A stretch of DNA of 64,000 nucleotides, from contig NZ_CALUWS010000005.1 of the NCBI RefSeq assembly GCF_944324525.1, positions 27,514 through 91,513 on the forward strand, given 5' to 3'. The DNA is from an uncultured Desulfovibrio sp. (lineage in GTDB: Bacteria; Desulfobacterota; Desulfovibrionia; Desulfovibrionales; Desulfovibrionaceae). Positions 3,620 through 55,943 of the stretch are shown here, piece after piece. The number at the start of each line of letters is the position of its first letter. The first letter of the stretch is position 1. The position numbers and the translations under genes are program-made. The notes beneath the pieces were generated by a model, which saw only the letters and a program-made list of their open reading frames with translations, did no database searches and was not told the origin of the DNA.

Positions 3620-4129
3620 ATGTCCGAGAATCCCACGGTGCTGCTGGAGACAACCTCCGGCGACATCCTCATCGAACTCTTTCCCGACAAGGCCCCTGAA
3701 ACCGTCGCCAACTTCCTGCAGTATGTGGATGACGGTTTTTACAACAATACCATTTTCCATCGCGTCATCCCCGGCTTCATGATCCAGGGCGGCGGCCTCG
3801 GCGCCCGTATGGACGAAAAGCCCACCCGCGAGCCGGTCAAGAACGAGGCCGACAACGGCCTGAAGAACGACCGCGGCACCATCGCCATGGCCCGTACCCG
3901 CGAGCCGCACAGCGCCACGGCCCAGTTCTTCATCAACCTCGTGGACAACGAGTTTCTTGATCACAGCGAACCCACGCTGGACGGCTGGGGGTACTGCGTG
4001 TTCGGCAAGGTGGTGGACGGCATGGACGCCGTGGACAAGATCGCCAAGGTCAAGACCAAGGCCGTGGGCGTGCACGAGGCCGTGCCCACCGATATGGTGC
4101 TCATTACCGGCGCAAGCCGCTTCGAATAG
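3620..4129 (+). CDS. cyclophilin-type peptidyl-prolyl isomerase
   Basis: Peptidyl-prolyl cis-trans isomerase of the cyclophilin fold, 169 residues, cytoplasmic since no signal peptide is present (PpiB-like). Family signatures are [23 protein letters not shown] and [13 protein letters not shown] strong AAGGAG sits five bases before the ATG. The DinB-like gene follows after 12 bases, so the two are probably co-transcribed. Confidence 0.95.
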
Positions 4130-5348: not shown

Positions 5349-5645
5349 GAGCAATTCCCCATAGAAAATGCGGATCGCTCTGGTAGTCGCGAGAGCGTCT
5401 ACCCGCAACCAAACACACGGAAAAACCACGCTTTTTTCGTAAGGTGAGGGCAGCCTCAGCAGGGGAATTGGACACAATTTCCCTACAAATCCGATCCACG
5501 AAAGCGTTTTCGGGCTGAAACGCTTTGCCTTTCCCACCAGATGACCTGTCGCGTCGCGAAAAAATGCGGCTTTTCCGCTTGTTTTCGGCCGGGCGGCGCT
5601 GGCCGCCGCCTCGCACGCTGTCTTTTTCAAAGGCAATGTCTTTTA
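5349..5645 (-). repeat. family A hairpin repeat, long degenerate copy
   Basis: Fills most of the gene-free stretch between two convergent genes. The right part (about 5515-5645) is an inverted family A unit ending in the TTTTTCAAAGGC arm. The left part carries the extension also seen in the copy at 19588-19823 (GGTAGTCGCGAGAG, CACGGAAAAACCACG, GTGAGGGCAGC). No credible gene lies here. Confidence 0.75.
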
Positions 5646-5720
5646 CCTGCCCCCAGTAGCGCGCCCAGGCGCGAAACGGGAGATCTCCCGCCATGCGGAC
5701 GGTTTGGGGCCCGCCGGAGC

Positions 5721-8552
5721 TCAGCGGCCAGGCGGCAGAGCGCGGGAGGCTTCGCCAAGGGACGCGCGTATGGTGTCGCAGCAGCGGCGGACGCCGTTCA
5801 AATCGAATTCGTTGACGGCCTGGAGCAGCTGGGCCAGCTGTTTCGCCAGGCAGGTGCCTCGGGCCCGCTCCAGCAGCTGGGAGGCGAGCGTTTCCGCCGT
5901 GCCCCAGTCCTTTTCCATGATATCGGGAAGGCCGGTCAGGGTGGCCGCCGCGGCGGAGCGGACACAGGGCGGGACCGGCGCGCAGCCCTGTTCCTGCAGG
6001 GGTTCCTCGCCGCCGCAGTACGCAAGGATGGCCTGACGGCTCTCGTCCAGCGCCTGCAGGAAATGGTGCGTCTTTTCCGCTTCGGGGGCCTGCCGCAGCA
6101 GGGTATTCTCCATGGCCGTGGCGTGGTCGGCAAAGCGGGCAAGCCCCAGATTGGTGGCGACGCCCCGCATGGCATGGATGAGCTGGAGCAGCTCCTCCAG
6201 CCGGTTATCCTGCAGCAGGCTGCGGATTTGTACCGTGCAGTCGGCATAGCGGTGGGCGAAGCGCTGCAGCAGGGAACGGTAAAGGCGTTCGTTGCCGGCC
6301 ACGGCGGCAAGGCCATCCGAGGGACTGAGCAGGGGCAGGCTTTCGCCGCCGGAGGGGGCGTCGTTTTCGCTGCCGTCCGTCTCATGCGAGTCGCTGGGCG
6401 TCTCCGCTGTGGAAGGCAGGCCGCAGGGCAGCCATTTTTCCAGCGTTTCCCTCAATTTTGCGGGGTCGACCGGTTTGGTCAGGTAGTCGTTCATGCCGGC
6501 GGCCAGCCCGGCGATGTGCGAGCCGGAATCCGTGTGCGCGCTCAGGGCGATGATGGGCAGGCTTTGCGGCGAATGTCCGTTGCCGCGGATGCGGCGGGTG
6601 GTCTCCATGCCGTCCATCACGGGCATCTGCATGTCCGTGATGATCAGGTCCGGCTGCTGCGCTTCGGTCTGCTGGATGGCCTCCTCGCCATTGGCGGCAA
6701 GGCTGACCCGGCAGCCCATCTGGGTGATGAGTTCCTGCAGGATCTCGCGGTTGATCTCGTTGTCGTCCACCACAAGGATATGGGGGCAGGACTTGCGAGA
6801 GGCCGCGGCGGGCTCTTCATCAAGCATCTCGGCAGGATCCTGCGACTGATGCTCACGGACCAGGAGGCGGCAGAAGGCCGGATGGGGCGCGGCCTTTTCC
6901 AGAACGGGGAAGGAAAGGCTGAAATGGAGGCAGCTCCCTCCGGGCTGGGTTTCCAGCTCGAGCTGTCCGCCCAGCAGGCGTACCAGCTGATGCGCCAGGG
7001 CAAGGCCCATGCCGATGCCGGTCTCAGTGCGGGTAAGGGAACTGTCGCCCGAGGTCAGCGGCTCGAAGATGTGCTTGCGTGCCGGCTCGCTGAAGCCGGG
7101 GCCGTTGTCCGTGACGGCGAACTCCACCAGAGCGTGGTCAGGCGGGGAGGCATCCGCCGAGGCCGGCAGGAGGCGGGCGGACAGGACGACGGTCCCCCGC
7201 TGGCTGTAGCGCAGGGCGTTGTCCAGCAGGCTTTCCAGCACCCGGCGCAGGCGCAGGGCATCGGTCAGTACCTGGACGGGCAGCTCGGGGGTCGCGTCCA
7301 GCGCCAGGCCAAGATGGCGCTGCCGGGCCACGGCGGCGAACGGACGGATGGTCCGCTCCAGCAGTTCCACGAGTTTTGCCGGCTGCTCGTCCGGGCGCTG
7401 CCTGTCGTCGGCCAGGCTGGAGAATTCGAGGATGCGGTCGATCATGGCGGTCAGGCGGCCGCCGGACTGCTGGATCTGCCGTACATAGCTCTGCTGCCGG
7501 GGCTGGAGCGGCGTCTTGAGCAGGAGGAAGCTCATGCCCAGAAGTTCGTTGATGGGCGTGCGCAGCTCGTGGCTCATGCGCCGCAGCAGATCCTCTCGTG
7601 CGGCCAGGGCCTGCCGGGAAAGGCGGGTGGCCTCCTCGGCCTCGCTGCGGGCGAGCTCCGCCTGCCGGCAGTTCTCGCGTGACTGCTTGTCCGCCATGTC
7701 CAGCGCGCGGATGCGGGCCTCGAGGTCGTCCTGCAGGCCGCAGAGGGCCCGAAAGATGTCGGAAAGCTCATCCCTGTGGGCCGGAAGAGGGCGGGGCGCC
7801 TTTTCTCCCCGGCGGGAGGCCAGCACATACTGGTGCATCTCGCGCAGGGGATTGATGAAGCGGCGTTCCCGCAGGCGCATGAACGTGAAGATCAGGATGC
7901 CGATAAGGGCAAGGGCCCCAGTGCAGGCCCAGGCCAGCATTTTGAGGCTGTGACGCAGCTCATCGGCGTGCAGGGTGATGTTGCGGCGCAGCAGGTGGCG
8001 GAAATCCCGGCACTGATCGATGATGATCTCGAACTGCCGCCGCATGTTGCGCGCCGCCAGGAAGTCCTGCATGGCCTGCCGGGAATCTTCGGGCATGACA
8101 TGCGGACGCGCATGGGTCGGCATATCGCCCGCCGCCTGCCGGGCGGCTTCGCCTATCTGGTCGGAAAATTCCTTGTACAGCGTGACGGTGCTGGTCAGCA
8201 GCGTACGCGGCGTGGGGGCAAGGGGGAGTTTTTCCACCGTGGACGGCAGCTGCGGCAGATCCTGCGTGGGGTCCTCGCGGCGGGGCAGCGCGCCCTGATC
8301 CTGGAGCCGGATCTCTTCCAGCATGGCCAGCATGGTTCGGTTGCCCGTACGGCCAAACTCCCGCGCCAGCGCATACTTGGTGCGTGCGCGGTATTCGATG
8401 TGGCTGGAGATGTCGTAGGCCTGACCCACCTCGTCAAGACGGCTGCCCCTGTTGTAGAGGTCCATGCCAAGGATGAAGATGGAGGCGCAGAAAAGGGTCG
8501 TTACCGTCAGAAGGAGGATGTTCCAGCTGCGGGTGAGAGCGCGGATCGTCAT
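5721..8552 (-). CDS. hybrid sensor histidine kinase with receiver and Hpt domains
   Basis: Tripartite phosphorelay kinase of 943 residues. A membrane segment at about 11-30 and a second near 210-230 enclose a helical periplasmic sensor region. A linker and coiled coil (about 250-320) lead to the dimerisation domain with His328 in MSHELRTPINELLGMS. An ATPase domain follows (DNGPGFSE; GIGMGLALAHQL). The receiver has LVVDDNEINRE, Asp640 in IITDMQMPVMDG and Lys in LTKPVDP. The C-terminal Hpt domain has His793 in LIHAMRG. The design is that of TorS/BarA-like kinases. No cognate response regulator is adjacent. Confidence 0.93.
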   Translation of the reverse strand: MTIRALTRSWNILLLTVTTLFCASIFILGMDLYNRGSRLDEVGQAYDISSHIEYRARTKYALAREFGRTGNRTMLAMLEEIRLQDQGALPRREDPTQDLPQLPSTVEKLPLAPTPRTLLTSTVTLYKEFSDQIGEAARQAAGDMPTHARPHVMPEDSRQAMQDFLAARNMRRQFEIIIDQCRDFRHLLRRNITLHADELRHSLKMLAWACTGALALIGILIFTFMRLRERRFINPLREMHQYVLASRRGEKAPRPLPAHRDELSDIFRALCGLQDDLEARIRALDMADKQSRENCRQAELARSEAEEATRLSRQALAAREDLLRRMSHELRTPINELLGMSFLLLKTPLQPRQQSYVRQIQQSGGRLTAMIDRILEFSSLADDRQRPDEQPAKLVELLERTIRPFAAVARQRHLGLALDATPELPVQVLTDALRLRRVLESLLDNALRYSQRGTVVLSARLLPASADASPPDHALVEFAVTDNGPGFSEPARKHIFEPLTSGDSSLTRTETGIGMGLALAHQLVRLLGGQLELETQPGGSCLHFSLSFPVLEKAAPHPAFCRLLVREHQSQDPAEMLDEEPAAASRKSCPHILVVDDNEINREILQELITQMGCRVSLAANGEEAIQQTEAQQPDLIITDMQMPVMDGMETTRRIRGNGHSPQSLPIIALSAHTDSGSHIAGLAAGMNDYLTKPVDPAKLRETLEKWLPCGLPSTAETPSDSHETDGSENDAPSGGESLPLLSPSDGLAAVAGNERLYRSLLQRFAHRYADCTVQIRSLLQDNRLEELLQLIHAMRGVATNLGLARFADHATAMENTLLRQAPEAEKTHHFLQALDESRQAILAYCGGEEPLQEQGCAPVPPCVRSAAAATLTGLPDIMEKDWGTAETLASQLLERARGTCLAKQLAQLLQAVNEFDLNGVRRCCDTIRASLGEASRALPPGR

Positions 8553-15113: not shown

Positions 15114-15338
15114 TTACAGCGCCTTGCGGCGTTTCCAGACGTGATCGGCCAGCAGGACGCTGAAGGCGATCCCGGTCAGCACATGGGCCTTGCTCTTGCC
15201 GGCAAAGCCCAGGGCCAGCGAGAGGCCCAGCGTCCCCAGCATGACGCGCATGGTCAGTTTGCGGGTGTTCACGGCCGGCCGTCGGGCGGGCGTCGCACAG
15301 TCGGGAGCGGACGTTTCCAGGGGAGCGATGGTGGACAT
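15114..15338 (-). CDS. small membrane protein divergent from feoA
   Basis: 74-residue protein with one or two hydrophobic stretches (MLGTLGLSLALGFAG and HVLTGIAFSVLLADHVW) and a basic tail. Histidines in KAHVLTG and LADHVWK recall small DUF4405-like haem or flavin-associated membrane proteins, but this is not a firm family call. The ATG of MSTIAPLE is chosen because GGAGG lies five bases before it. It shares a Fur-like operator with the divergent feoA gene, suggesting iron control. Confidence 0.55.
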   Translation of the reverse strand: MSTIAPLETSAPDCATPARRPAVNTRKLTMRVMLGTLGLSLALGFAGKSKAHVLTGIAFSVLLADHVWKRRKAL

Positions 15339-15367
15339 GGTTGCCTCCATTGAAAAGATGGGTTGAG

Positions 15368-15396
15368 GAAAAAATGAATTTAACTTTCATTTTTTC
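15368..15396. promoter_or_regulatory. Fur-like operator between divergent iron genes
   Basis: A perfect inverted repeat with 11-base arms, GAAAAAATGAA and TTCATTTTTTC, around seven bases. The central TGAATTTAACTTTCA agrees at most positions with the Desulfovibrio Fur motif TGAAAATnATTTTCA. It lies 29 bases from the minus-strand gene and upstream of feoA, so one site could repress both directions. Experimental binding is not known. Confidence 0.7.
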
Positions 15397-15442
15397 TTGA
15401 CGACCACGCTAAAGTAAGTCACTGTCCTTTGCAAGCCCGCAC

Positions 15443-15524
15443 GGGCAGCTTCCGGCACGACGATCCAGAACCGACCCCTACTGGCGTGCCGCAGGCACGT
15501 CAGCCAGCGTGCCGGAAGCTGCCC
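15443..15524 (+). promoter_or_regulatory. structured feoA leader, nested hairpins
   Basis: Outer arms GGGCAGCTTCCGGCACG (15443-15459) and CGTGCCGGAAGCTGCCC (15508-15524) are perfectly complementary over 17 bases. Inside the loop a second hairpin pairs CTGGCGTGCC with GGCACGTCAG (15481-15503). The structure ends 26 bases before the feoA ribosome-binding site. It could be a riboswitch-like leader, a protein-binding RNA or a DNA element; no known class is matched with confidence. Confidence 0.6.
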
Positions 15525-15557
15525 ATGCGATACACCGTGTTTTTACAGGAGGCGGTC

Positions 15558-15797
15558 ATGAGCAATATCATCAGTTTGCGTCAGATGGCAGTAGGGCAGC
15601 AGGGCAAGATCGCCGCTGTGGAGGCGCTCGGCGAAATGGGACGTCGCATCCGGGACATGGGGCTTATCCCCGGCACGACGGTTTCCGTGGTGGGGCGCGC
15701 GCCGCTCAAGGATCCGGTGGCCTTGCGGCTTTCCGGCGTGACGGTGACGCTGCGCAACAGCGAGGCCGATCATATCACCATCGATGTGGCAGGCTAA
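15558..15797 (+). CDS. feoA: FeoA-type SH3-like iron transport accessory protein
   Basis: 79-residue cytoplasmic FeoA domain: SLRQMAVGQQGKIAAVEALGEMGRRIRDMGLIPGTTVSVVGRAPLKDPVALRLSG. The conserved MGLIPGT and RDPV-like turns are present. FeoA normally assists the ferrous permease FeoB, yet no feoB is in the window; here the next genes encode the ferrosome ATPase and partners. AGGAGG precedes the ATG. Likely Fur-repressed from the operator upstream. Confidence 0.93.
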   Translation: MSNIISLRQMAVGQQGKIAAVEALGEMGRRIRDMGLIPGTTVSVVGRAPLKDPVALRLSGVTVTLRNSEADHITIDVAG

Positions 15798-15839
15798 CGT
15801 GCCGCCACTCCCCGGGCGAGCGGGGCGAAGTTGTTGATG

Positions 15840-15861
15840 AAGGGGGGCGACCCCCTTTTTT
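15840..15861 (+). terminator. possible terminator or attenuator inside the iron cluster
   Basis: GGGGG and CCCCC arms around GCGA, followed by six T, between feoA and the next co-directional gene. The stem is short, so partial read-through is likely. Confidence 0.55.
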
Positions 15862-15884
15862 CAAGTTGTAGCGATAAGGAGAAA

Positions 15885-16142
15885 ATGCCTGTGAATTCTG
15901 TATTCAAGTATGGTCTGGTTTTTCTGGGCGGTCTCGTAGTGGGCGCGCTGGGCGCGACGGCGGCCAAGCGGGGTTCGCTGAACCTCAAGCCGCTGGCCAC
16001 GGATCTCATCAGCCGCGGTATGGACGTGAAGGACGCGCTTATGAGCAAGATGGAAGCGGTCAAGGAAGACATGCAAGATTTGGCGGCGGAAGCCCGCGCC
16101 AAAGCCGAGGACCGCAAGGCCGCTCCGCAGCAGGACGCCTAG
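15885..16142 (+). CDS. DUF6110-like small membrane protein of ferrosome locus
   Basis: 85-residue protein with one N-terminal membrane segment containing glycine zippers (YGLVFLGGLVVGALGATAA) and a soluble helical tail with repeated acidic/basic residues (KMEAVKEDMQDLAAEARAKAEDRK). This shape matches small DUF6110-type proteins next to P1B-6 ATPases in ferrosome clusters, where glycine-zipper proteins are proposed to shape or fill the organelle membrane. The FezA-like role is inferred from position and topology. AAGGAG precedes the ATG. A terminator and a repeat separate it from the ATPase gene. Confidence 0.7.
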   Translation: MPVNSVFKYGLVFLGGLVVGALGATAAKRGSLNLKPLATDLISRGMDVKDALMSKMEAVKEDMQDLAAEARAKAEDRKAAPQQDA

Positions 16143-16213
16143 GGCGAAGGCTCTGCCGCGAGCTGTCAACGTGACTATTCCCGTCCGGCCGGGAGGCCGG
16201 GCGGGAGCAGTCT

Positions 16214-16240
16214 GCCGCCGCAAACCGCGGCGGCTTTTTT
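16214..16240 (+). terminator. rho-independent terminator before fezB
   Basis: Perfect GCCGCCGC and GCGGCGGC arms with a five-base loop and six T, 72 bases after the stop of the DUF6110-like gene. It should reduce or end transcription before the ATPase gene. Confidence 0.85.
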
Positions 16241-16267
16241 AGAGTCTTGCAAACAGAAGATGCTCTT

Positions 16268-16416
16268 GGAACGTTTCACCTTTGAAAAGGGTGGAACGCG
16301 AGGCGGCGGCACAGCGCCGTCCGGCCCAAAGTGGTTGGAAAAACAGCGCTTTTTCCGCGAAACGCCAGGTCGTATGGTTTGAAACGCAACGCGTTTCAAA
16401 CGGAAATTGCTCTAGG
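16268..16416 (+). repeat. family A hairpin repeat (copy 2)
   Basis: Full direct copy between the terminator and fezB. It has the CGTTTCACCTTT arm pair, the GGCGGCGGCACAGCGCC hairpin, GGAAAAACAGCGCTTTTTCC, and the GTTTGAAACGC/GCGTTTCAAAC hairpin. It ends in TTGCTCTAG. Confidence 0.9.
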
Positions 16417-16484
16417 GAACAGCCCCATCGCGCACGTCGGGCGGAATGGGCAAAACGTCGAAACGGTTCAGGGGAGTGGCGCGC

Positions 16485-18704
16485 ATGCGTTTTTATCTGG
16501 TTCATGAAGTGGTTTTGCCATCCGGCGGACGGATGCGCGTGCGCGCCTCCCAAACCTTTGACGCCGCCTTTGGAGAGGCGCTGGGCGAAGAGCTGGCGGC
16601 GCTTTCCGGCGTGACGGTGGCTGCCGTCAATCCGCGTGTGGGCAGTTTGCTGCTGTTGTATGCGGATGCGGCGGCCCGCGAGGCCTGCCTGCGCTGCCTG
16701 CTGGCGCTGTCCGGCCCGGAAGACGCGCCGGAGCGCTCCGATCAGGCTGCCGGGCCTGCCGTCTCGCTGTCCCCCGTGCATCAGGCCGGGGGCGAACTGC
16801 ACCTGCTGGAAGAGGGCGACGCCCCGCCGCTGGGGGGCTTCGGGCCGCTGTTGCGCTTCCTTTTCGTGCGGCCCTTCCTGCCTATGGCCGCCCGCATACT
16901 TTCCTCCGTCATGGGGGCGCTGCCCTTCCTGAAAAAAGGACTGGATGCGCTGCTGCAGGGCAAGCTCAATGTGGATGTGCTGGACGCGGCGGCCATCACC
17001 GTCTCGTTGATCCGGCGGGATTTCCGCACCGTGACCACGCTGACCCTGCTGCTGGGGTTGGGCGAGGCGCTGGAATACTGGACGCGCCGCCGCTCGCTGG
17101 ACAGCCTGACCGAAAGTCTGGCCCTCAATGTGGAACAGGTCTGGCTGGAGCGCGACGGTACGGAGATCTGCGTTCCCCTTGCCCAGGTGGCCCCGGGGGA
17201 CCGGGTGGTCGTGCGGGACGGCGGCTGCATCCCCGTGGACGGCGTGGTGGAAGAGGGCGAGGCCGTGGTCAATCAGGCCTCCATGACCGGCGAGCCGCTG
17301 GGCGTGCCGCGTGGCGTGGGAGCCTCCGTCTATTCCGGAACCGTGGTCGAACAGGGACGGCTGGTCATTCGCGCCGTGCATGTGGGCGACGGTACGCGCC
17401 TGCAGCAGGTCGTGCATTTCATCGAGGAATCCGAGGCCCTCAAGGCGGGCATCCAGGGAAAATACGAGCGCATGGCCGATATGGCCGTGCCCTTCACCTT
17501 CGGCCTTGCGGCGCTGGTCTGGCTCATCACCCGCAATCCCCTGCAGGCGGCATCCGTACTGCTGGTGGACTACTCCTGCGCCCTGCGGCTGGCCACGCCG
17601 CTGGCCGTGCTGGCGGCCATGCGCGAAGGGGCCCGGCACGGCGTGGTCATCAAGGGAGGGCGCTATCTTGAGGCCTTGTCCGAGGCGGATACCGTGGTGT
17701 TCGACAAGACGGGCACGCTGACCAATGCCACGCCGCGCGTGGCGGAGGTCTTTGCCGCCGAGGGACAGCAGCGGGACGAGGTCTTGCGGCTGGCCGCCTG
17801 CCTTGAGGAGCATTTCCCGCATCCCGTGGCGCGGGCCGTGGTGCACAAGGCGCAGGAAGAAGGCCTGCAGCACGAGGAAGAGCACGCCCATGTGGAGTAT
17901 GTGGTGGCGCACGGGGTGGCTTCCACCCTGTACGGGCAAAAGGTGCGCGTGGGCAGCCGTCATTACATCGAGCATGACGAAGGGGTGAGCGTCGAACCCA
18001 TGCGCGAGGTGCTGGAGGCCCAGACGCGGCTTGGACGTTCGCTGCTCTATCTGGCCATCGACGGCAGGCTGGCGGGCATCATCGCCATCGAGGATCCCTT
18101 GCGGCCCGAAGCCGCGGAGGTCCTGCACGGTCTGCGGGAGGCCGGCGTGCGTCGCATCCTCATGCTCACCGGCGATGACGAGCGCACGGCGCGTGCCGTG
18201 GCCGCCCGGCTGGGCATCGAGGAATTCCGGGCCCAAGTGCTGCCCACGGAAAAGTCCGACGTCATCCGCGAACTCAATGCCGAAGGCTGCAAGGTGCTCA
18301 TGGTCGGGGACGGCATCAACGATGCGCCGGCCCTTTCCGCCTCCCATGTGGGCGTAGCCATGTGCGACGGGGCGGATCTTGCCCGCGAGGTGGCCAATGT
18401 GCTGCTGACCCGCCCCAGCCTTGAGGGGCTGCTCACGGCCCGGCGGCTGGGCTGCGGCGCGCTTTCCCGCATCCGCTGCAATTTTGCGGCGGCTATGGGG
18501 CTGAACAGCCTCTTCCTGCTGGGCGGGCTCTTCATGCTGCTGACGCCGGGCGTCTCCGCCCTGCTGCATAATCTGACGACGCTGGGCATCACCCTCAACG
18601 CCATGCGGCCGCATCTGCCGTCCCCCGCTGAGCCGGAATGGCCGCTCGACGAGGACGGGCGTACTCTGGAACTGCTGGCGGACGACGGCGGGCAGGCCGC
18701 CTAG
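16485..18704 (+). CDS. fezB: P1B-6-type heavy-metal ATPase, ferrosome protein FezB
   Basis: 739-residue P1B-type ATPase. An N-terminal HMA-like domain (about 1-75; NPRVGSLLLLYAD) lacks the CxxC metal pair. Actuator TGEP is in ASMTGEPLG. The metal-site helix has Ser-Cys-Ala (residues 364-366, DYSCALRLATPLA) instead of CPC or SPC, the hallmark of the P1B-6 subgroup. Asp407 is the phosphorylated residue in FDKTGTLTN; HP is in EEHFPHPVAR and the hinge is GDGINDAPA. P1B-6 ATPases are the core of ferrosomes, iron-storing membrane organelles first described in Desulfovibrio magneticus. The start follows AGGGGAG nine bases upstream. The stop TAG lies inside a family B terminal repeat. Confidence 0.87.
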   Translation: MRFYLVHEVVLPSGGRMRVRASQTFDAAFGEALGEELAALSGVTVAAVNPRVGSLLLLYADAAAREACLRCLLALSGPEDAPERSDQAAGPAVSLSPVHQAGGELHLLEEGDAPPLGGFGPLLRFLFVRPFLPMAARILSSVMGALPFLKKGLDALLQGKLNVDVLDAAAITVSLIRRDFRTVTTLTLLLGLGEALEYWTRRRSLDSLTESLALNVEQVWLERDGTEICVPLAQVAPGDRVVVRDGGCIPVDGVVEEGEAVVNQASMTGEPLGVPRGVGASVYSGTVVEQGRLVIRAVHVGDGTRLQQVVHFIEESEALKAGIQGKYERMADMAVPFTFGLAALVWLITRNPLQAASVLLVDYSCALRLATPLAVLAAMREGARHGVVIKGGRYLEALSEADTVVFDKTGTLTNATPRVAEVFAAEGQQRDEVLRLAACLEEHFPHPVARAVVHKAQEEGLQHEEEHAHVEYVVAHGVASTLYGQKVRVGSRHYIEHDEGVSVEPMREVLEAQTRLGRSLLYLAIDGRLAGIIAIEDPLRPEAAEVLHGLREAGVRRILMLTGDDERTARAVAARLGIEEFRAQVLPTEKSDVIRELNAEGCKVLMVGDGINDAPALSASHVGVAMCDGADLAREVANVLLTRPSLEGLLTARRLGCGALSRIRCNFAAAMGLNSLFLLGGLFMLLTPGVSALLHNLTTLGITLNAMRPHLPSPAEPEWPLDEDGRTLELLADDGGQAA

Positions 18705-18929
18705 GGCTGTTGACACTATTTGCTGTCTGTTTGGGGGGAAGGGGAACCCCGCCGCCGGCGCGGGCGGTGTTCCCCTTCCCCCCAAGCCCCCCATCCCTTC
18801 CCCTGCGCGCTTTTACCGGGGGGAGGGTCAGGGACACGAGGCAACCCCGCCTCTGTGGTAAGCGGAGTGTGTACGGGGGGTGGCTTATATGTTGAAATTG
18901 TTTGTAAAATTAGTGTTGACGGGCCCTGG
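18701..18929 (+). mobile_element. family B MITE-like element (copy 2)
   Basis: Ends CTAGGGCTGTTGACAC and GTGTTGACGGGCCCTGG are near-perfect inverted repeats. Inside, TTGGGGGGAAGGGGAAC pairs with the GTTCCCCTTCCCCCCAA arm, followed by CCCCCCATCCCTTCCCC and GCGCGCTTTTACC. The left end overlaps the fezB stop codon and the right end abuts a family A copy. Confidence 0.85.
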
Positions 18930-19075
18930 GGCGTTTCACCTTTGAAAAAGAGAAAGCGCGAGGCGGCGGCACAGCGTCGCCAGACCGCAACCAGGTGAAA
19001 AAGCAGCGCTTTTTTCGCAAAACGCCAGGCCGTATGGTTGGAAACGCGAAGCGTTTCAAACGGAAAGTGCTTTAA
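18929..19075 (+). repeat. family A hairpin repeat (copy 3)
   Basis: Direct copy joined to the right end of the family B element. The first arm is imperfect (CTTTGAAAAAGAGAAAGC); the last hairpin GAAACGCGAAGCGTTTC is perfect. It ends 35 bases before the HMA-like gene. Confidence 0.88.
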
Positions 19076-19110
19076 GAACGACAGGTACGGAAAGTACGGA
19101 GCGGAACCCT

Positions 19111-19413
19111 ATGCTGGATACCCTGCGTTTTGTCAAATATGTACGGAGCTTCATGGATGGCCGGGTACGGCTGCGGCATCCCGCGCTGCAGGACCGGCAG
19201 GTGGCCGCGCTGGCCCAGCAGGGGATAGCCGCCATCCCCGGCGTGCGGCAGGTGGAGGTCAACCCGCTGAGCGGATCGGCCCTGTTGCTGTACGACAGCA
19301 GCCGTCTGAGCCGGGAGCGGCTCATGGAAATGGGCGTTGCCTGGGCCGTGTGGCTGGATGAGGCGCGTGCCGGCCGTATCGGTCCCCTGCCGCAGGCCGG
19401 AGGGCCGCAGTAA
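19111..19413 (+). CDS. HMA-like protein of ferrosome locus (FezC-like)
   Basis: 100-residue protein whose core RVRLRHPALQD...IPGVRQVEVNPLSGSALLLYD resembles a heavy-metal-associated fold without the CxxC pair. It parallels the N-terminal domain of the neighbouring ATPase (both have a NP-x-x-GS-x-LLLY stretch). Ferrosome loci carry such HMA-like partners beside FezB, so a FezC-like or assembly role is likely; this is context inference. Although 400 bases of repeats lie between it and fezB, direction and domain match argue that they belong together. Confidence 0.72.
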   Translation: MLDTLRFVKYVRSFMDGRVRLRHPALQDRQVAALAQQGIAAIPGVRQVEVNPLSGSALLLYDSSRLSRERLMEMGVAWAVWLDEARAGRIGPLPQAGGPQ

Positions 19414-19587: not shown

Positions 19588-19823
19588 CCGCGCGGGCGGC
19601 GGCACGGTGCCGCTCGGCCGAAACCAGGCGGAAAAACCGCGCTTTTTCCGCGAAACGACAGGCCGTATGGTTTGGAACGCGCAGCGTTTCAAACGGAAAT
19701 TGCTCTGGTAGTCGCGAGAGCGACTACTCGCAACCGAACACACGGAAAAACCACGTTTTTTCCGTAGGTGAGGGCAGCGTCAGCATGGAAATTGGACACA
19801 ATTTCAATGCGAATCCGCTCTAG
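19588..19823 (+). repeat. family A hairpin repeat, extended copy (copy 4)
   Basis: Contains the middle and last hairpins of family A, then an extension with its own hairpins: GTAGTCGC/GCGACTAC and ACGGAAAAA/TTTTTTCCGT, ending in GCGAATCCGCTCTAG. The right end provides the stop codon and last residues of the minus-strand transporter gene. Nothing else is seen between 19414 and 19587. Confidence 0.82.
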
Positions 19824-41944: not shown

Positions 41945-42090
41945 AGCGTTTTAGCTTTGAAAAAGGTAAAACGCGAGGCGGCGGCACAGCGCCGCCCGGC
42001 CCAAAGTGAGCGGAAAAACCGCGTTTTTTCCGCGAAACGACAGGCCGTATGGTTTGAAACGCAACGCGTTTCAAACTGAAAATGCTTTAG
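41942..42090 (+). repeat. family A hairpin repeat (copy 7)
   Basis: Full four-hairpin copy. Perfect features are GGCGGC-ACAGC-GCCGCC, GCGGAAAAA-CCGCG-TTTTTTCCGC and GTTTGAAACGC-AAC-GCGTTTCAAAC. The first hairpin is GCGTTTTAGCTTTG with AAGGTAAAACGC. It ends AATGCTTTAG, 27 bases before the epimerase ATG. Confidence 0.92.
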
Positions 42091-45055: not shown

Positions 45056-45200
45056 AGCATTTTACCTTTGAAAAAGGTAAAACGCGAGGCGGCGGCACAG
45101 CGCCGTCCGGCCCGAAGTGAGCGGAAAAACCGCCCCTTTTCCGCGAAACGACAGGCCGCATGGTTTGAAACGCAGAGCGCTCAAACAGAAATTGCGCTAA
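45053..45200 (+). repeat. family A hairpin repeat (copy 8)
   Basis: Starts on the acetyltransferase stop codon (TAGAGCATTTTACC). All four hairpins are visible; the third arm is changed to CCGCCCCTTTTCCGC and the last is degenerate (GTTTGAAACGCAGAGCGCTC). Confidence 0.9.
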
Positions 45201-47145: not shown

Positions 47146-47275
47146 AGAGCGTTTCACCTTTGAAAAAGGTGAAACGCGAGGCGGCAGCACAGCGCCGCCC
47201 GGCCCAACGTGAGCGGAAAACCGCGTTTTTTCCGCGAAACGCCAGGCCGTATGGTTTGAAATGCGGAGCGTTTCC
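47146..47275 (+). repeat. family A hairpin repeat (copy 9)
   Basis: First hairpin perfect (AGAGCGTTTCACCTTTG / AAGGTGAAACGC). Second GGCGGCAGCACAGCGCCGCC. Third GCGGAAAACCGCGTTTTTTCCGC. The last hairpin is broken (TTTGAAATGCGGAGCGTTTC). Confidence 0.9.
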
Positions 47276-55800: not shown

Positions 55801-55943
55801 GATTTTCGTTTGAAACGCTTAGCGTTCCAAATCATACGGCCTGACGTTTCGCGGAAAAAGCGCGATTTTGCCGCTCACGTTTGGCCGGGCGGCTCTGTGC
55901 CGCCGCCTCGCCTGTTGCCTTTTTCAAAGGCAAAAGGCTCTAG
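55801..55943 (-). repeat. family A hairpin repeat (copy 11, inverted)
   Basis: Inverted copy with GTTTGAAACGC near its left end, CGCGGAAAAAGCGCG, GGCGGCTCTGTGCCGCC and TTGCCTTTTTCAAAGGCAA at the right. The terminal CTAG holds the stop codon of the YbjQ-like gene. Confidence 0.88.

Follow-up and report, generated by a model that had tools for sequence, protein, structure and literature searches.

The closest described counterparts of the locus studied here are the fez genes of ferrosomes. In Clostridioides difficile, according to the passages of PMC12574912 that deal with them, ferrosomes require FezA and FezB, and both are Fur-repressed. For Desulfovibrio magneticus, passages of PMC11334425 describe FezB as the putative ferrous iron transporter of ferrosomes, and FezC as a protein that resembles DUF4405 proteins and that, in recombinant form, behaves like a haem b cytochrome whose haem site would form as a dimer. 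We analysed a stretch of 64,000 nucleotides (64 kb, “the window”) from contig NZ_CALUWS010000005.1 of an uncultured Desulfovibrio sp. The source genome comprises 93 contigs (2.9 Mb) and, by kinship codes, shares its family with D. magneticus RS-1. Between positions 15114 and 19413, the window carries feoA together with counterparts of fezA, fezB and fezC. Sequence homology provides good support for a ferrosome-type locus, variant in its gene order and in having FezC split. We consider it likely that this locus is Fur-controlled, and that its FeoA is mainly the partner of a FeoB encoded elsewhere, a remnant of an older feoA-feoB-fez order. The features are as follows (in the text, loci, genomes and contigs carry our own labels L, G and C).

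15114-15350, minus strand: fezC-like gene of 78 codons, encoding a two-histidine, DUF4405-type half with no HMA domain
15374-15390, no strand assigned: Fur-like palindrome (putative operator), flanked by feoA and the divergent fezC-like gene
15558-15797, plus strand: feoA (PF04023, E 2e-18)
15885-16142, plus strand: fezA-like gene for a glycine-zipper membrane protein of 85 aa; a profile from its relatives finds RS-1 FezA
16214-16240, plus strand: terminator-like hairpin in the fezA-fezB gap, with 8 G-C pairs and then TTTTTT
16347-16400, plus strand: dispersed repeat, one copy, located between fezA and fezB
16446-18704, plus strand: fezB-like gene for a P1B ATPase of 752 aa (TIGR01525, E 6e-154), with Ser-Cys-Ala codons at 17574-17582
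19007-19060, plus strand: further copy of this repeat, located after fezB and before the HMA gene
19111-19413, plus strand: gene for a cysteine-free HMA_2 protein of 100 aa (PF19991, E 1.3e-12)

Pfam and NCBIfam searches matched no Fez family for the proteins of the locus, and the comparison was made with RS-1 itself: 6000 bases of the 58,704-base reference contig are 100% identical to NC_012797.1 (Solidesulfovibrio magneticus RS-1). The RS-1 locus (L166) consists of three genes: fezA (5456-5716), fezB (5732-7963) and, at 7944-8384, a gene whose product combines an HMA domain with two helices that carry histidines. In a tree of 85 chosen rows, grouped beforehand (LG+G4, quick search, no bootstrap), the window ATPase and RS-1 FezB share a clade of 42 rows from Desulfovibrionales and Bacillota with a support of 100 (SH-like approximate likelihood ratio test); E. 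coli CopA, ZntA and other P1B rows lie outside. The window ATPase, whose likely true start at 16485 would give a protein of 739 aa, is 50% identical to RS-1 FezB. Its metal motif, Ser-Cys-Ala (SCA), had been noticed in the initial annotation; it is shared with RS-1 FezB and all surveyed FezB-type frames except those of L042 (2885-5062, ACA) and L201 (4209-6371, SCS), and is also present in the sister P1B subfamily described below. For the HMA domain of the ATPase, Pfam gives a weak match of 15.7 bits (cut-off 30), and a profile built from relatives detects it. At the usual CxxC position, both this domain and the separate HMA protein have GRxRxR. The lack of CxxC had been noticed in the initial annotation. 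A CLRC is present at ATPase residues 81-84, outside that loop, and is absent in the 14 other aligned rows.

P1B-6 is the named group of Fez ATPases, and the link of the window ATPase to that group would run only through the RS-1 FezB clade. P1B-3 and P1B-4 ATPases carry a CPH or SPC motif. The window ATPase has neither, and an SPC row (L138) lies outside the FezB clade. The initial annotation had named a position among P1B-1 to P1B-4 as the result that would speak against a ferrosome locus; placement with P1B-1 or P1B-2 did not occur, and the tree held no named P1B-3 or P1B-4 protein. Among NCBIfam models, the heavy-metal model TIGR01525 fits the ATPase best, and the copper model TIGR01511 is below its cut-off. 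Among solved structures, copper and zinc pumps are the closest to it.

As a class, P1B pumps are metal exporters. The ATPase might then act in the cell membrane as an exporter of iron or of some other metal, with no organelle made, and the score for TIGR01512 (cadmium family; 360 bits, above cut-off) would fit such a function. However, the ATPase groups with RS-1 FezB rather than with E. coli CopA or ZntA, and counterparts of FezA and FezC accompany it; we therefore regard this explanation as unlikely. Export by a member of the CopA or ZntA clade specifically was rejected, because the ATPase lies outside both in the tree; it also has SCA instead of CPC. ATPase matches at E 1e-100 or better occur in 53 of the 62 genus genomes listed, a cut-off that may also admit the sister subfamily. 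Among the plasmid-protein matches listed (40 of at least 5000), many are SilP, and one, encoded on an Azospirillum megaplasmid (NZ_CP022367.1, 1073277-1075022), is an ATPase 44% identical to that of the window.

The glycine-zipper membrane protein, also recognized in the initial annotation, is FezA-like. It carries GxxxGxxG, in which G16 and G23 are invariant and G20 nearly so in an alignment of 13 rows, and a profile of such zipper proteins finds RS-1 FezA at E 3e-29. In Pfam, only weak matches below cut-off were obtained (DUF6110, LEA_1, DUF5132).

Three elements of the locus had gone unnamed in the initial annotation: the FezC-like gene on the minus strand, the hairpin between fezA and fezB, and the dispersed repeat. 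The open reading frame at 15114-15350 was considered as a spurious frame, and this was rejected in view of its conservation, its pair of invariant histidines and its match to FezC. Its likely true start is 15338, with GGAGG ahead of this second ATG. The histidines, H56 and H70, are 14 residues apart and invariant in 19 rows. Alignment of 18 genus rows, 10 of which have an HMA part or longer N-termini, with 11 RS-1-type FezC rows gave an hhalign probability of 99.4 (E 3e-21); the last 58 residues alone gave 97.8 (E 7e-13). Against DUF4405 domains, the alignment covers ~20 columns with both histidines in register, at hhalign probabilities of 34-73 (FezA control, 0.2), using 12 of 24 loci picked by eye for a clean frame. 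The shortness of this match counts against a DUF4405 link. Pfam DUF4405 matches to single FezC-like proteins are below cut-off, and a Pfam search of the window protein gave no match.

The HMA domain that RS-1 FezC has at its N-terminus is here a separate gene, located after fezB. Its product was correctly described in the initial annotation as a second CxxC-less HMA-like protein; it contains no cysteine and exceeds the PF19991 family cut-off. The sequence GRxRxRH is invariant in 12 HMA rows including RS-1 FezC. Within the genus, the divergent gene includes an in-frame HMA domain in 17 loci (L045-L051, L055-L058, L063, L076, L077, L196, L204, L205), and its frame has no HMA match in 14 (the window, L041-L044, L059-L061, L186-L191). 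FezC thus occurs as separable parts, a two-histidine membrane half and a cysteine-free HMA half.

Is the locus decaying in this lineage? FezC is shortened, with its HMA domain missing, and the fezA-fezB gap, which is 351 bases long up to where the FezB profile match begins, holds the hairpin and a copy of the repeat. Hairpins of this kind number 10 in the region, compared with a shuffle mean of 5.1, and of 26 loci scanned only the window and L047 have one between fezA and fezB. The repeat carries a GAAACGC...GCGTTTC palindrome; the 64 kb contain seven matches to its left part (the two listed above, 19640-19693, 42022-42075, 45133-45167, 47224-47258 and 55809-55862) and six to the palindrome, and shuffles gave none. 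Selection argues against decay. Computed gene by gene against five relatives, the ratio of nonsynonymous to synonymous substitution rates (dN/dS) is 0-0.06 for feoA, 0.11-0.18 for fezA, 0.13-0.31 for fezB, 0.14-0.31 for the HMA gene and 0.31-0.69 for the FezC-like gene, and the frames of fezA, fezB and the HMA gene are open. Moreover, long gaps between fezA and fezB are common: the gap is 130-492 bases in 15 of 26 loci and at most 54 bases in the other 11. Decay therefore seems very improbable.

The Fur-like operator proposed in the initial annotation is present. The sequence ATGAATTTAACTTTCAT at 15374-15390 is the top-scoring site of the 64 kb (17.7 bits; runner-up, 14.4 bits), and the maximum in ten block shuffles was 12.0 bits. 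The matrix was built from 31 of the sites printed in PMC545781, mostly stronger ones; these score 17.1-24.6 bits themselves, which places the window site at the low end. We scanned 26 fez loci that contain feoA, leaving out L044. The best site upstream of feoA scores at least 14 bits in 23 of them, including the window, and less in L041, L042 and L060. Upstream of fezA in 30 other loci, scores range from -5.5 to 19.3 bits, with 10 at 16 bits or more. In genus g21, such sites precede fezA in L176 and L177, and not in L178. The Fur-like site suggests putative control of the locus by Fur.

What does FeoA do in this locus? The initial annotation had described feoA without feoB, and indeed the profile scan, which covered 16 kb of the window, detected no feoB there. 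The source genome encodes two FeoA proteins and two full FeoB proteins. The FeoB on contig C34 has its own FeoA. The FeoB on contig C27 is preceded by a DUF2325 gene (both lie within L079, 7423-10014), with no FeoA in the surrounding 12 kb and a Fur-like site of 22.7 bits upstream; in all seven loci scanned for this FeoB type, the upstream site scores at least 19.1 bits. We asked how FeoA and C27-type FeoB are distributed among 49 genomes of the genus, taking identities of at least 59% to the window FeoA and at least 60% to the C27 FeoB as cut-offs. These are 40 fez-bearing genomes, namely those with fez loci of usable length among 60 found, and nine without a FezB match, all counted without kinship correction. 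Both proteins are present in 42 of the 49, neither in six, FeoA only in one (G023, 78% complete) and FeoB only in none. Window-type FeoA is found in 38 of the 40 fez-bearing genomes and C27-type FeoB in 37, the match in G189 being a piece of 158 residues only.

The initial annotation had concluded that FeoA serves the Fez system rather than FeoB. As a dedicated Fez part, FeoA might gate iron entry and bind FezB or FezA through their cytosolic domains. Among the 40 fez-bearing genomes, 27 have its gene within the fez locus; selection is stronger on it than on any other gene of the locus, and in all 23 loci examined of the sister subfamily an FeoA-domain protein is next to the ATPase. However, FeoA tracks one FeoB type with or without FezB. 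Five of the nine genomes without a FezB match keep FeoA (63-84% identity), and these are exactly the ones that have the FeoB type; the other four have neither. Conversely, G001 and G223 have FezB, and lack both FeoA and the FeoB type. In eleven fez-bearing genomes FeoA lies beside the C27-type FeoB (three; G014, G019, G032) or elsewhere (eight, including G274), and the fez locus of RS-1 has no feoA. On this co-occurrence we rejected FeoA as a part of Fez only, and a dedicated Fez role seems unlikely.

Gene order also speaks against the earlier conclusion. L203 and L193, from other genera, have feoA-feoB-fezA-fezB-fezC on one strand, and in L053 and L050 a C27-type FeoB still adjoins fez. The window FeoA is close to the FeoA proteins that adjoin FeoB in L203, L193 and L208-L210, in a tree that omits L073, L074, L181-L185, L243, L016 and matches above E 1e-15. 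The simplest reading of this distribution is that feoAB and fez were once neighbours, and that FeoB moved away while feoA stayed; the FeoA of the window would then be a FeoB partner that stayed behind with fez. A Clostridiales fez-type locus (L080) has an FeoA-like gene (3636-3914, E 6e-8) ~1.1 kb before fezB. Among the literature matches listed, no link between feoA and fez was found by title and abstract start, and a term search of PMC8749426, on Feo evolution, found no mention of P-type, ATPase or Desulfovibrio.

FeoA could instead do both, coupling uptake by FeoB to storage by FezB by handing over Fe(II) or a signal. The feo and fez genes occur together in six loci (L203, L193, L053, L050, L198, L200), Fur-like sites precede both feoA in fez loci and the C27-type FeoB with the frequencies given above, and FeoA stays with fez in most fez-bearing genomes although FeoB mostly does not. 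Shared regulation alone would explain the neighbourhood, however, and the eleven genomes that hold FeoA away from fez are not expected from such coupling. We regard a dual role as a tentative and rather unlikely option.

The sister P1B subfamily of Desulfovibrionales is relevant here. All 23 loci examined, of which seven came from context searches and sixteen were added to test this point, encode a protein of two or three FeoA domains next to an SCA ATPase; the stretch retrieved contains a FeoB match in two of them (L184, L266). FeoA-like domains can therefore accompany such pumps, which keeps alive a more specific proposal, that FeoA is a shared adaptor regulating FeoB in the cell membrane and FezB in the organelle, and thereby physically couples import and storage. 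We consider this rather unlikely. If it were true, the sister clusters would be the same idea made permanent. These clusters (L073, L074, L181-L185, L256-L271) often contain two or three P1B ATPases, with motifs MACPC, D(Y/F)SCA and D(Y/F)ACA, as well as HMA proteins, small zipper proteins and a DUF4405-like protein.

Several observations weigh against our preferred explanation, that is, a Fur-controlled ferrosome-type locus with an FeoA that mainly serves FeoB. For FeoA, the 27 of 40 genomes that keep feoA within the fez locus exceed what a mere leftover would lead one to expect, and the sister loci point the same way; the FeoA tree is built on few columns and is poorly resolved, and the genome counts for FeoA and FeoB are not independent events. 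For regulation, the Fur-like site before fezA in RS-1 scores only 12.8 bits, and the strong terminator-like hairpin between fezA and fezB makes a single simple transcript of the two genes doubtful. For the identity of the locus, the ATPase also exceeds the cut-off of the cadmium-family model TIGR01512. The 78-aa FezC-like protein lacks the HMA domain, its gene is under the weakest selection of the locus, and profile scans of fez loci within the genus found no FezC-like match in several (L052-L054, L065, L075, L197). Finally, equating the L166 genes with the published fezABC is our own reading of gene order and of secondary passages in PMC11334425 and PMC12574912.

How might the locus work? From the observed homology, gene order, Fur-like site, selection and FeoA-FeoB co-occurrence, we infer the following course. 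When iron is low, Fur would leave the site at 15374-15390, allowing transcription both ways. FezA and FezB would form or populate small membrane compartments, into which FezB, a P1B pump with an SCA metal site, would move Fe(II). FezC, a predicted two-histidine membrane cytochrome, may pair to hold haem and set the redox state of the iron. The cysteine-free HMA protein could work beside FezB or replace the HMA domain missing from FezC. FeoA would act mainly as the cytosolic partner of the FeoB on the other contig, which has its own Fur-like site. The organism would then make ferrosomes, as the initial annotation had proposed. The source genome also encodes one ferritin-family gene; ferrosomes need therefore not be the sole iron store.

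Most of the genomes listed for one genus in the family of RS-1 appear to carry ferrosome-type genes. The association of feoA with fez suggests that Fe(II) uptake by feoAB and ferrosomes are genetically linked, which can be tested.

How does the locus compare with known systems? A P-type ATPase gene of D. vulgaris, 208856, is also located behind Fur-like sites in a Desulfovibrio, as predicted in PMC545781; the relevant part of that paper draws no link to a storage organelle, and 208856 is at most a candidate orthologue of the window ATPase. The window differs from the feoAB uptake system in that its feoA has no adjacent feoB, the matching FeoB being on contig C27. The C. difficile fez system, compared through the description of FezA and FezB in PMC12574912 rather than by sequence, shares the two proteins that ferrosomes require there. 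In nine other Bacillota loci (L080-L086, L088, L089), fezA adjoins fezB and there is no FezC-like match. The RS-1 fezABC genes are alike in encoding a FezA-like zipper protein, a FezB of the same clade with SCA, and a FezC with two histidines in a helix pair. They are unlike in that the three RS-1 genes are on one strand, with FezC comprising HMA and helices and no feoA in fez, whereas in the window the FezC-like gene is divergent and HMA-less, the HMA gene follows fezB, and feoA precedes fezA.

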